From NCBI GenBank assembly GCA_938038975.1, contig CALHVP010000063.1, positions 1 through 43,700 of the forward strand: 43,700 nt of DNA, given 5' to 3'. Under the pieces are notes generated by a model that saw only the letters and a program-made list of their open reading frames with translations, was not told the DNA's origin and did no database searches. Within the stretch, counting starts at the first letter, position 1; each line of letters begins with the position of its first letter. A program made the translations under genes and the position numbers. The DNA is from an uncultured Maribacter sp. (GTDB taxonomy: Bacteria > Bacteroidota > Bacteroidia > Flavobacteriales > Flavobacteriaceae). This document shows, piece by piece, positions 21,272 through 24,818 of this stretch.

Positions 21272-22078
21272 CTAACTTACCTTCTTTTCGCTTAAATATT
21301 TCCAATAGCGTTTAGGCACATGCTGGGTGTGTAGTTTTTTATTAATTCGTGATTTGATGTTTGTACTCTGAAAGTAATTATTCCACAATTGCTGATAATC
21401 ATATTCTTCACTTTTAAAAGCAGTATTCTCGTGTATACTATTGGCAAATGTATTTTGCAAATCTAGGTTCACAATCTCAACCGCTTCTAAGTTGAAATAG
21501 AGCCCGTAATTTCGTTTAGCATCATAAATAATCCACTGTTGATCTGCATAACGGGAACGAAAATGCTTCGAGACTAATGGGAGCACATTAAAATCTGGTT
21601 CTATAATGGCAAAATATACGTCATCCTTGGTCAATTGAAATCGTACGAAAGCTTCCATTCTATGTTTTTCCCTGCCTACTTTATGTGCCAGTTGATTAAT
21701 TTTAAGAATACAATCATCTGTAAAGTTTGATGTATTATTCTCAGTACACTGCATTAATTTCTGAATGTAGCAGTAGAGTAGTGGCTCAATTCCTTTTTGC
21801 TCGCTTAGAAAAGCAAAATATATATTTTTTATTGCTGTACTACTTCTATTTTTAACTCCATTCCAAACACGTTTAGCTTTTTCTAAGTTTGTAAATATAG
21901 TTTCTGTTTCTGTAAACAATCCATTTTGAACACTGGTATTTGGTTGAATATCGGCGTGGGACATTTTCTGTTCAAACCCAATAAAAACAGCGGTAAGAAA
22001 ACCATTAAAACTTCCATCGTATATGAACGTTCTTGATTTTGTTTCAAAACTCTTGTTTGTTTGTTCTAGTGTCTCCAT
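21272..22078 (-). CDS. TIGR03915/DUF4130-type putative DNA metabolism protein
   Basis: A protein of 268 residues that matches, from memory, the DUF4130 family (TIGR03915), whose members occur next to or fused with uracil-DNA glycosylase-like domains and next to the radical SAM protein found here. Visible hallmarks are FIYDGSFNGFLTAVFIGFEQK at the start, HRMEAFVRFQLTKDDVYFAIIEPDFNVLPLVSKHFRSRYADQQWIIYDAKRNYGLYF in several pieces across the middle, and the basic C-terminus LHTQHVPKRYWKYLSEK. It is the stand-alone form: no glycosylase domain is attached. The biochemical role is unproven. It is the last gene of the divergent repair operon. Confidence 0.88.
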   Translation of the reverse strand: METLEQTNKSFETKSRTFIYDGSFNGFLTAVFIGFEQKMSHADIQPNTSVQNGLFTETETIFTNLEKAKRVWNGVKNRSSTAIKNIYFAFLSEQKGIEPLLYCYIQKLMQCTENNTSNFTDDCILKINQLAHKVGREKHRMEAFVRFQLTKDDVYFAIIEPDFNVLPLVSKHFRSRYADQQWIIYDAKRNYGLYFNLEAVEIVNLDLQNTFANSIHENTAFKSEEYDYQQLWNNYFQSTNIKSRINKKLHTQHVPKRYWKYLSEKKVS

Positions 22079-22090
22079 AATTATTCGTTT

Positions 22091-22243
22091 TTAGAAATAA
22101 AACATCAATATTCTTTTCTTAAAAGTGACAGTATTCTTTTTAATTTTAGTTTTCCAAACAACAAACTGATAACCTGCTGTTAAAATGGCAGTTCTACTTT
22201 TCTCTACTAAACCGTGATTTTGCTGTGTTTGAATGGTATCCAT
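22091..22243 (-). CDS. Possible small protein (50 codons) in the repair operon
   Basis: An ATG-started ORF of 50 codons that sits between the radical SAM gene and the DUF4130 gene. The gaps are 17 bases to the upstream stop and 12 bases to the downstream start, the spacing expected of a real operon member. The product begins MDTIQTQQNHGLVEKS, has a hydrophobic stretch (ILTAGYQFVVW) and a strongly basic C-terminal half (KTKIKKNTVTFKKR). I do not recognise it. It could be a basic nucleic-acid-binding or membrane-associated accessory peptide, or untranslated spacer; the spacing is the main support. Confidence 0.45.
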   Translation of the reverse strand: MDTIQTQQNHGLVEKSRTAILTAGYQFVVWKTKIKKNTVTFKKRILMFYF

Positions 22244-22260
22244 TTTAACCCTTTAGTTAG

Positions 22261-23523
22261 TTAATTAAATAATGATAATTGACTGCTATACTGATTTCTA
22301 AATTTACCTGAAGAGGTTTTCAAAATCAAACCTTTTATCTGTTCTGCTTCTAAATCTTTTCGCTCCCAATCCTGCGAATCGCAAAGAATAAAATATTTAG
22401 CACGGTTTAGCGCAACGCCTATTTTCTTTAGATGCTCCCAATTTAGATTTCTAAACGTCCTTGCTTTTATAATTTTATGAACACTACGCATTCCAACCCC
22501 AGGAATTCTGGCTAACATTTGTCTGTCGCTGGTATTAATATTTACAGGAAATAGATTCAGATTTCTTAGGGCCCAACTTAGCTTAGGATCAACAGTAATA
22601 TCCAAATTTGGATGCGTATCATTGAGAAGTTCGTTTACAGAAAAACCATAAAAGCGCAATAACCAGTCGGTCTGGTACAATCTATTTTCTCTAAGCATTG
22701 GCACTTGTGTACCTATTGCTGGCAAACGACTATCATTGGCTACGGGAACATAACCAGAGTAATAAACTCGTTTCATGTTATATTTTTTATAGAAATGAGT
22801 AGCTGAATACATTATATCCTTGTCGGATTCTCCTGTTGCTCCAACAATCATCTGGGTACTCTGTCCTGCTGGAGCATATTTAGGTGTACTCCTTATAATT
22901 TTCTTTTCAGAGGTATATCTAATGATTTCATTCTTTACTTTAAACATGGGTTTTAAAAAGTCTTCATGCTTTTTATCTGGCGCTAGTAATTTAAGGCCGG
23001 AAATTGTAGGTATTTCTATATTCACAGATAAACGATCTGCGTATAATCCAGCCTCATACATTAATTCATCACTAGCTCCAGGGATTGATTTTAAATGTAT
23101 ATAACCATTAAAGTTCTCCTCTTCCCTTAGTTTTTTTGCAACAGCAATTAGCCGCTCCATCGTAAAATCTGGACTTTTAAATATTCCAGAACTTAAAAAA
23201 AGACCTTCTATGTAGTTTCTTCTGTAAAAGTTGATTGTAAGGTCTACTACCTCTTGTATCTTAAAGGCAGCTCTTTTTATATCATTACTTTTTCTAGTGA
23301 CACAATAAGCACAATCAAAAATGCAATGATTAGTTAATAGTATTTTCAATAGAGATACGCATCTACCGTCTTCTGTATAGCTATGACAAATTCCCATACC
23401 AGTACTATTACCCAACCCTTTATTTTTATTAGAACGATTACTACCACTACTAGAACATGAAACATCGTATTTAGCGGCATCTGCTAGAATATGTAGTTTT
23501 TCCTTAGTTCGTTCAAAATTCAT
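22261..23523 (-). CDS. Putative DNA repair/modification radical SAM protein (TIGR03916)
   Basis: A protein of 420 residues. CxxxCxxC at residues 67-74 (NHCIFDCAYCVTRK) binds the [4Fe-4S] cluster of a radical SAM enzyme; extra cysteines at 23, 46 and 55 are also present. A C-terminal helix-hairpin-helix segment (LARIPGVGMRSVHKII) should bind DNA. This combination matches TIGR03916, from memory a family linked to uracil-DNA glycosylase-like proteins and to DUF4130. The reaction is not established; a photoproduct-lyase-like repair is one inference. The frame is open to 23580, but that stretch is only the operator repeats, so the ATG at 23523 is chosen. It is the first gene of the operon that diverges from the S24 regulator. 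Confidence 0.93.
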   Translation of the reverse strand: MNFERTKEKLHILADAAKYDVSCSSSGSNRSNKNKGLGNSTGMGICHSYTEDGRCVSLLKILLTNHCIFDCAYCVTRKSNDIKRAAFKIQEVVDLTINFYRRNYIEGLFLSSGIFKSPDFTMERLIAVAKKLREEENFNGYIHLKSIPGASDELMYEAGLYADRLSVNIEIPTISGLKLLAPDKKHEDFLKPMFKVKNEIIRYTSEKKIIRSTPKYAPAGQSTQMIVGATGESDKDIMYSATHFYKKYNMKRVYYSGYVPVANDSRLPAIGTQVPMLRENRLYQTDWLLRFYGFSVNELLNDTHPNLDITVDPKLSWALRNLNLFPVNINTSDRQMLARIPGVGMRSVHKIIKARTFRNLNWEHLKKIGVALNRAKYFILCDSQDWERKDLEAEQIKGLILKTSSGKFRNQYSSQLSLFN

Positions 23524-23540
23524 AATCGTTGTATATATTC

Positions 23541-23548
23541 CAAATTTA
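23541..23548 (-). promoter_or_regulatory. Promoter -7 box of the repair operon
   Basis: TAAATTTG on the minus strand matches TAnnTTTG. Transcription would begin near 23535, about 12 bases before the ATG at 23523. The box touches the first operator copy, so a bound repressor would block it. Confidence 0.55.
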
Positions 23549-23603
23549 TGGAAATAATCCATATTATGGAAATAATCCAAATATATTTATGGATATAATC
23601 CAT
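23548..23603. promoter_or_regulatory. Three tandem 15-bp operator boxes
   Basis: Copies lie at 23548-23562 (ATGGAAATAATCCAT), 23566-23580 (ATGGAAATAATCCAA) and 23589-23603 (ATGGATATAATCCAT). The third is a perfect inverted repeat, ATGGAT-ATA-ATCCAT; the others differ from it at one or two positions. Starts are 18 and 23 bases apart. Dyad symmetry, copy number and position between a HTH/S24 regulator and its divergent operon make them the likely binding sites of that regulator, controlling both directions. Confidence 0.85.
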
Positions 23604-23609
23604 ATTACG

Positions 23610-23617
23610 TATATTTG
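23610..23617 (+). promoter_or_regulatory. Possible -7 box of the S24 regulator gene
   Basis: TATATTTG matches TAnnTTTG, and the third operator sits just upstream, where the spacer and -33 region would be. The G is only three bases from the ATG at 23621, so this promoter would give a leaderless message or one that starts inside the codon; the true promoter may be slightly different. Confidence 0.35.
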
Positions 23618-23620
23618 AGT

Positions 23621-24385
23621 ATGGAAAATGAATTGACTTTAAAGCGTTTTACAGAAATTCGGAGAGATTTAGGATTCACACAGGTAGAATTTGCTGCATT
23701 ATTAGGTGTATCTAATACTACTGCAGATATAGAACGTGGGCGCACTAAACTTTCTGGTAAGGTAGTTTCTGAACTTTTAAAACAATTCAAGATTAATCCT
23801 TTGTGGTTGTTTGGTGAAAGTGAGCAGCAATACCTGGAAACTTCCAACACAACTGTTATTCCTAAAGTAGTTACAGTAGACGCAGAACAGAATGAAAATA
23901 TGGTATTGGTAAATGCAAAAGCAGCTGCTGGATATCCGCAAAATATAGCTGATACAAGTTGGTATCAGCAACTACCAGCCTTTGATCTTCCAATTCCAGA
24001 ATTTAGAAATGCTACATACAGGGGTTTTCAAGTAGAAGGAGACAGTATGTTACCTAATTTACATCCTGGAGAATGGGTATTAGCGAGAGCTATTGAGCAT
24101 ATAGATCATGTGAGTGCTAATAAAATGTATGTAGTAGTATTACAGGATTCTATTATGGTAAAAAAAATAGAAAAGCGTCCTAATTCTAATAATGTTAGCT
24201 TGGTCTCTCTAAATGAAACCTATCCGCCTTACGATATTAAGCCATTTCAAATTCAAGAAATATGGGAAGTAAGTAGTAAAATAACATTTAATGTAGATGC
24301 AACTACAGATACTGGTTTACTTCGTCAGCTACAGGAGTCTATGGATGAACTAAAAAATCAGTTACAACATGTTAAAAAAGTATAA
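23621..24385 (+). CDS. LexA-like transcriptional regulator (HTH + peptidase S24)
   Basis: A repressor of 254 residues. The N-terminal HTH (about 8-57) has TQVEFAALLGVSNTTADIERG. The C-terminal domain is S24/LexA-like: the Ser nucleophile is Ser142 in VEGDSMLPNLHPGEWVLA, the general base Lys is at 181 or 182 in SIMVKKIEK, and a candidate Ala-Gly cleavage bond is at 103-104 (KAAAGY). All parts for RecA-stimulated self-cleavage are therefore present. It diverges from a radical SAM repair operon across three operator boxes, which supports a damage-responsive autorepressor. The ATG at 23621 is preferred to the TTG at 23615. The last residues form a short coiled coil (LLRQLQESMDELKNQLQ). Not a phage remnant: no phage genes are nearby. 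Confidence 0.92.
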   Translation: MENELTLKRFTEIRRDLGFTQVEFAALLGVSNTTADIERGRTKLSGKVVSELLKQFKINPLWLFGESEQQYLETSNTTVIPKVVTVDAEQNENMVLVNAKAAAGYPQNIADTSWYQQLPAFDLPIPEFRNATYRGFQVEGDSMLPNLHPGEWVLARAIEHIDHVSANKMYVVVLQDSIMVKKIEKRPNSNNVSLVSLNETYPPYDIKPFQIQEIWEVSSKITFNVDATTDTGLLRQLQESMDELKNQLQHVKKV

Positions 24386-24386
24386 T

Positions 24387-24818
24387 TTAAGAGTCCATTT
24401 TCTTAACATACAAACCACTATTCTTTAGGGTAAACCCAAGACTTTTATAAAGAGCTATTGCCGCAGTTCTATGATGACCACTAAAAAGGAGTACATCATC
24501 TAGTTTACATTCGGTAGCACGCAACAAAAGTAGCTCCATAAGCTTTCTGCCAATTCCTTTACCTCTGTGGTTGTTAGAAACCACAACATCTTCTATCATT
24601 CCTTTATGACCAGAAATTACGGTATACTTTGCCATCATAGCTATTCCAACTAGGCTATGCTCGACTATACATACAACTATTTCAATAGCTTCAGGTCTTT
24701 CTAAAATAATTTTTAAAGAGCGTTGCTTTAATTCTGAGTTAAGTTGTAGATATAACTCCGTTACCTGTGATTGTAAGTCCTGAGTTACATCATTTAATGA
24801 AAGTAGTTTTATTTGCAT
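24387..24818 (-). CDS. GNAT family N-acetyltransferase
   Basis: A small cytosolic acetyltransferase of 143 residues. Motif A is clear: GMIEDVVVSNNHRGKGIGRKLMELLLLRA, in which RGKGIG is the acetyl-CoA pyrophosphate loop. Motif B follows as DVLLFSGHHRTAAIALYKSLGF. The overall layout (IEDVVV, HRTAAIALYKSLGF) recalls glucosamine-6-phosphate acetyltransferase-like GNATs, but the substrate is not predictable. One base separates its stop from that of the convergent S24 regulator. Confidence 0.92.
   Translation of the reverse strand: MQIKLLSLNDVTQDLQSQVTELYLQLNSELKQRSLKIILERPEAIEIVVCIVEHSLVGIAMMAKYTVISGHKGMIEDVVVSNNHRGKGIGRKLMELLLLRATECKLDDVLLFSGHHRTAAIALYKSLGFTLKNSGLYVKKMDS

Follow-up and report, generated by a model that had tools for sequence, protein, structure and literature searches.

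A three-box operator array between an S24 repressor gene and a radical SAM-DUF4130 operon in Maribacter: probable home locus of the group's SOS repressor

Locus anatomy and the operator array

The window analyzed here is a stretch of 43,700 nucleotides (nt), contig CALHVP010000063.1 (C63) of a 3.29-Mb, 85% complete metagenome-assembled genome (MAG) of an uncultured Maribacter sp. (GCA_938038975.1). At positions 21272-24385, minus-strand genes for a radical SAM protein, a small open reading frame (ORF) and a DUF4130 protein stand divergent from a plus-strand gene for a protein with an HTH_3 (helix-turn-helix) and an S24 domain. The gap between the S24 and radical SAM start codons is 97 bp, and three GGA-N5-TCC dyads lie inside it. 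This layout, an S24 repressor facing away from a radical SAM, small-ORF and DUF4130 operon across three dyads, had been proposed in an earlier sequence-only reading and is confirmed by profile matches and a dyad scan.

Relatives of the locus were collected by scanning contigs with the radical SAM protein, which found 233; the best 80 of these 233 are used throughout. They carry names of Flavobacteriaceae genera, among them Maribacter, Flagellimonas/Allomuricauda, Zobellia, Pricia, Croceivirga and Cellulophaga, with some records uncultured or oddly labelled. In all 80, an S24 gene diverges from a gene of the radical SAM family TIGR03916, and a TIGR03915/DUF4130 gene follows downstream. The anatomy of the locus, its conservation and the distribution of its boxes are direct observations.

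In the dyads, ATGGA/TCCAW arms enclose a 5-bp spacer that lacks symmetry; the dyads are predicted as operators from their motif and conserved register (no strand assigned). O1 (ATGGATATAATCCAT, 23589-23603), a GGA-N5-TCC dyad, is nearest the S24 gene. O2 (ATGGAAATAATCCAA, 23566-23580) carries one mismatch, and its distances to O1 and O3 are 23 and 18 bp. O3 (ATGGAAATAATCCAT, 23548-23562) touches the radical SAM -7 box described below. Chance dyads were rejected: when the 97-bp intergenic region was shuffled 20,000 times with its dinucleotides kept, no shuffle contained two or more GGA-N5-TCC, and the array is conserved in relatives. When 81 loci including the window are compared, the distances between box starts are 23 and 18 bp in 66 and 22 and 18 bp in 11. 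The dyads noticed from the sequence recur upstream of S24/TIGR03916 pairs as a three-box register (22/23 + 18 bp) kept in 77 of 81 loci, the remaining four missing one box. An extra box is found 23 bp beyond O3 in 21 of the 81 loci; the sequence of the window has no box at that place.

Two near-invariant TAnnTTTG elements flank the boxes, oriented away from each other. The one at 23610-23617 on the plus strand (TATATTTG) is the predicted -7 box of the S24 promoter, from column conservation in 66 loci, and the one at 23541-23548 on the minus strand (TAAATTTG; alignment columns 53 to 60) is the predicted -7 box of the radical SAM promoter, found in 80 of 81 loci. TAnnTTTG is the -7 consensus of flavobacterial sigma-A promoters, located at -12 to -5 (PMC9723704). 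The S24 transcript presumably starts at or beside the ATG. Column conservation was counted over the 66 loci with the exact 23/18 register, where the half-site letters are invariant by row selection; most letters of both -7 boxes are invariant in the same loci without selection on these letters, and columns at the outer ends (-30 to -18 and +75 to +79) reach only 0.06-0.64 bits. The -33 elements are less clear than the -7 boxes, and no conclusion rests on them. The distance from the core of O1 to the S24 -7 box is 8 bp, and that from the core of O3 to the radical SAM -7 box is 1 bp. Because these cores are so near the -7 boxes, a bound repressor should block both promoters.

The repressor and the reach of its regulon

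According to Sanchez-Osuna et al. 2021 (PMC8565304), Bacteroidetes lack LexA and instead have S24 repressors with a CI-like HTH_3 domain, called non-canonical LexA, whose descent from phage repressors is suggested. One repressor cluster, mainly of Flavobacteriaceae, binds GGA-N5-TCC. For the repressor of Salegentibacter agarivorans (WP_075324850.1), gel shifts were obtained on GGA-N5-TCC, including the region upstream of its own gene, and altering either half site or the spacer length abolished binding. Mitomycin C induced the repressor gene and its targets, but not recA. Predicted targets of the GGA-N5-TCC group include dinB-dnaE, splB, umuDC, SRAP, a COG2932 regulator and a COG1573-COG4277 operon, and regulon contraction is described in some clades. 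The dyads of the window match this experimentally bound motif in both half sites.

The window's S24/HTH_3 protein (23621-24385, plus strand; 254 amino acids (aa) from the ATG at 23621) is predicted to be an autorepressor of the non-canonical LexA type. Its N-terminus matches HTH_3 (PF01381) at 31.2 bits against a cut-off of 23, and Peptidase_S24 (PF00717) is also above its cut-off. In Pfam, the N-terminus matches HTH_3 and HTH_19 only, with no match to the LexA winged helix (PF01726). The Ala103-Gly104 bond, Ser142 and Lys181-Lys182 are located as had been claimed from the sequence, and all 40 aligned S24 sequences, the window's included, have A103, G104, S142 and K181. The structure model is poor, with a mean predicted local distance difference test (pLDDT) score of 54.6; Foldseek pairs it with LexA and lambda repressor, which is in line with the domain calls and is taken for no more than that. 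A LexA-like, self-cleavable and self-regulating repressor over a divergent operon, as envisaged in the sequence-only reading, is supported: this anatomy agrees with it, and so does the S. agarivorans member, which binds GGA-N5-TCC and is inducible by mitomycin C (PMC8565304). A gene for a GNAT acetyltransferase (24387-24818) is convergent with the S24 gene and lies one base past its stop; a GNAT relative neighbors the locus in 38 of the 80 relatives. A tRNA scan of the window found none.

How many such repressors a genome holds was counted in 21 genomes of the genus, the MAG included. Each has one repressor-size S24 gene (open frame of 256-273 aa). In six of the 21 there is also an S24 gene of UmuD size (122-142 aa), and three have other S24 matches, one of these below the cut-off. 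In the MAG one S24 protein was found; a second was searched for and none was found.

The regulon was searched with a tandem GGA-N5-TCC pattern against a reversed control. In 12 congeners there are 63 forward matches, the window-type locus included, and 5 reversed ones. We read 38 stretches around AT-rich pairs away from the window-type locus, from the 12 congeners and seven genomes of named loci. Left unread were 12 tandem places with GC-rich spacers in the genus (four in genome G209, three in G213, three in G207 and two in G211), further GC-rich places (two in G001, three in G003 and two in G002), and tandem places in genomes outside the genus. Coordinates in G211 and G204 are identical to those in G002 and G199, and these loci were read once, through G002 and G199. 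The neighbors of the 38 stretches include dinB2 in 16, splB in 8, SRAP in 4 and a umuDC-like operon in 4. A box pair 19 bp apart stands just upstream of dinB2 in all 12 congeners, with dnaE2 visible beside it in 10 stretches, and such pairs also precede splB in 6 congeners, and SRAP and the umuDC-like operon in 4 each.

Because the same boxes precede dinB2 and, variably, splB, SRAP and umuDC in relatives, the window-type repressor is most likely the global SOS repressor of the genus, not a local one. The earlier suggestion that the unit is local and stands apart from a global LexA regulon is not supported for the genus, given the single repressor-size S24 gene in 21 of 21 genomes and the boxed dinB2 in 12 of 12 congeners.

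Three observations were made beside this search. In four congeners, tandem GGA-N5-TCC boxes adjoin genes of a protein family of 86-98 aa, one of which diverges from SRAP (members at L253:2036-2332, L264:2072-2347, L265:1732-2004 on the minus strand, L269:2029-2292 and L197:2208-2468 on the minus strand). Every pair of members matches by BLASTP with E below 1e-9, and four of the five were scanned against Pfam with no match; possibly it is a new SOS-induced small protein. In a record of Maribacter halichondriae (L192:2469-2500), an AT-rich tandem pair lies between divergent or tandem genes with no recognized SOS function. A single palindromic TTGGACATAATCCAA box at L205:1563 (G000:C128:2061) is about 0.5 kb upstream of an ssb-like ORF, a distance too great for a promoter box.

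Proteins of the divergent operon

The radical SAM protein (22261-23523, minus strand) has 420 aa from the ATG at 23523, the TTG at 23580 being merely the longest mechanical start. It matches TIGR03916 at 672.5 bits against a cut-off of 343.5. The helix-hairpin-helix (HhH) motif claimed for it is visible, yet its Pfam score of 23.3 is below the cut-off of 27. No solved structure matches this protein by sequence up to E 0.01. Among 196 genomes of the order, its own included, TIGR03916 has 52 matches, 44 of them above the cut-off.

Between the radical SAM and DUF4130 genes lies an ORF for a 50-aa microprotein (22091-22243, minus strand), which begins 17 nt past the radical SAM stop and ends 12 nt ahead of DUF4130. 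Microprotein ORFs occupy the same place in 33 of the 80 loci; plain tblastn recovers 17 of 80 only. From our own reading of the aligned ORFs, the common core is about ERSRxAILxLGYxFVxFKSKxKK. The pooled, uncorrected ratio of nonsynonymous to synonymous change (pN/pS) is 0.37 for nine Maribacter sequences and 0.38 and 0.32 for four and seven others, with the caveat that the pairs compared depend on one another and that synonymous sites approach saturation. These ratios fit purifying selection on a protein. Searches of Pfam and NCBIfam found no family for the microprotein of the window or of two relatives, one of which gave chance-level NCBIfam rows only.

The DUF4130 protein (21272-22078, minus strand) matches TIGR03915 at 266.5 bits against a cut-off of 112.25, and all 41 DUF4130 partners scanned match both PF13566 and TIGR03915. 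The uracil-DNA glycosylase (UDG) family (PF03167) is found in none of the 41. The absence of UDG had been called notable; the absence holds, but it is not unusual, as the partner is TIGR03915 and none of the 41 partners has the domain. The MAG yielded one UDG gene, which lies on a different contig, and from its motif we take it to be of the Ung type.

A sequence search with the DUF4130 profile, up to E 1, finds no solved structure, and there is no match to any Pfam DHH family. The structure model (mean pLDDT 78.5) suggests a RecJ/DHH-like fold. In Foldseek it has one match with E of 0.001 or less, a PAP phosphatase (3.4e-4, template modeling (TM) score 0.43), followed mostly by chains of RecJ, archaeal RecJ2 and Cdc45. 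In a VIA list of 50 rows, rows 1-38 are PAP phosphatase, RecJ, Cdc45 and DhhP-type chains, and those after row 38 are a mixture of family II pyrophosphatase and NanoRNase A chains with two of epimerase/racemase type. The best VIA Z is 8.5 over 191 residues at 5.2 Å, graded middling by the tool, and RecJ has a Z of 7.9. The PAP phosphatase at the top of the fold matches is a DHH protein. In a motif D21-x-[ST]-x-[NDE]-G26, all 41 sequences have D21 and G26, and at position 23 all have Ser or Thr. This motif occupies the place of the RecJ DxDxDG, in which position 23 corresponds to a metal-binding Asp. We read DUF4130 as possibly a remodeled or inactive DHH-like fold. A literature search that did not cover the supplements of PMC8565304 found no report of the microprotein or of a DHH-like fold for DUF4130.

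Interpretation and known systems

We propose that the locus is the autoregulated home locus of the Maribacter-group SOS repressor, placed back to back with an SOS-controlled repair operon, and give this reading a probability of about 0.86. S24/HTH_3 dimers would occupy O1, O2 and O3, which are flanked by the -7 boxes of a divergent pair of sigma-A promoters, silencing the repressor gene and the operon for the radical SAM protein, microprotein and DUF4130. RecA filaments on damaged DNA would stimulate self-cleavage at Ala103-Gly104 by Ser142 and Lys181. Both promoters would then open, and the repressor would build up again once the damage is gone.

Several points weigh against this reading. Binding, cleavage and induction in the window's own organism, as well as the chemistry of the repair operon, we infer, and the placement of the repressor in the S. 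agarivorans cluster would follow from motif, domains and family. Outside the clade, the 30 best-scoring TIGR03916 loci (24 from another family and 6 from the same family) have no S24 match in flanks of about 1.5 kb and no array; one isolated GGA-N5-TCC is found within 300 bp upstream in 2 of the 30. Of the 38 tandem stretches, 4 adjoin only an unknown small gene and 2 nothing recognized. In the MAG, at its completeness of 85%, no second tandem GGA-N5-TCC site was found, the stretches read for its only dinB contain no box, its SRAP gene has no box, and splB was not found with one query, from M. thermophilus. Single boxes of the pattern WGGAW5TCCW are not in excess over the reversed pattern in the MAG (33 and 39), and an excess is unclear in M. 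litopenaei (51 and 45); two other relatives do have an excess (52 and 20, and 37 and 19). In the same 300 bp upstream of the 30 out-of-clade genes, CTAA-N5-TTAG was also searched for and found in none. The cassette is an arrangement of this clade, not a general property of the TIGR03916-TIGR03915 pair.

These MAG findings are what one would expect of a repressor that, after contraction of its regulon, has no targets left but its own gene and the radical SAM operon: tandem boxes are found at the window locus only, no second dinB is found, and contraction is known in some clades (PMC8565304). We nevertheless consider such a local SOS unit unlikely. The boxed dinB2 is kept in 12 of 12 congeners, and at 85% completeness contraction in the MAG and missing contigs are indistinguishable. 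The single boxes of the MAG were read in part, with 50 of 80 TGGA-N5-TCCA places listed and 12 regions inspected. A separate global LexA beside a local repressor was set aside with one S24 gene found in the MAG.

A repressor of phage type, or one borne by another element, could also stand beside a repair operon by chance and answer a signal other than SOS, as its HTH domain of the CI kind and the descent suggested in PMC8565304 might recall. Synteny in 80 of 80 relatives, on which a phage element was set aside, the single repressor-size copy in 21 of 21 genomes and the boxes preceding classic SOS genes make this most improbable. That the dyads serve another regulator and are not bound by the S24 protein is very improbable, given that an S24 protein of the group binds this very motif (PMC8565304) and that the boxes lie inside the S24 gene's own predicted promoter.

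Beyond the home-locus reading, we offer tentatively, and as a rather doubtful picture, that the operon encodes a three-part lesion-handling machine not yet described and does not serve uracil excision. The HhH radical SAM enzyme might act with a RecJ/Cdc45-like DUF4130 that holds or presents single-stranded DNA with a remodeled metal site, and with the microprotein as a basic adapter; the fixed 23-18 operator ladder between promoters facing away from each other, with a fourth step in some relatives, might release repressor and operon in a set order.

The conserved ladder offers a handle for measuring cooperative repression in flavobacteria, and a conserved microprotein in an SOS operon is a testable refinement. 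The partner gene is read in print as a uracil-DNA glycosylase system, yet lacks a UDG domain in this clade, which would change the presumed repair role of the operon. Because none of the 41 partners has a UDG domain, the printed label COG1573 need not mean one here.

The control of the radical SAM-DUF4130 pair, which had been thought undescribed, is in print to the extent that PMC8565304 predicts the COG1573-COG4277 operon and the COG2932 regulator within the GGA-N5-TCC regulon. Like the group described there, the window has an HTH_3 and S24 protein with Ala-Gly and Ser-Lys, GGA-N5-TCC in its own promoter and several boxes per promoter, and the regulon seen in its relatives has in common with that group dinB-dnaE, splB, SRAP, umuDC and the COG4277 operon. 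Unlike the group, the window's MAG shows one tandem-boxed locus only. The sections read of PMC8565304 mention neither a back-to-back layout with three boxes in fixed register, nor the microprotein, nor a partner without UDG domain. With canonical LexA (COG1974), the locus would share the logic of a self-cleaving S24 repressor, negative autoregulation and SOS targets, whereas the window's N-terminus is HTH_3 and not the LexA winged helix.

The operon resembles the UDG-linked repair pair of TIGR03916 and TIGR03915 in that both proteins exceed their NCBIfam cut-offs and form one operon, but differs in having no fused or adjacent UDG and a microprotein in between. The best solved matches of the DUF4130 model are mostly chains of the RecJ/Cdc45/NrnA (DHH) fold; in contrast to that fold, the middle Asp is Ser or Thr in 41 of 41 sequences and no DHH triad is recognized. 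The control system is one already published for the phylum, and the window holds its marine flavobacterial version. New here are the geometry of promoters and operators, the microprotein, the lack of a UDG domain and the possible DHH fold of DUF4130.

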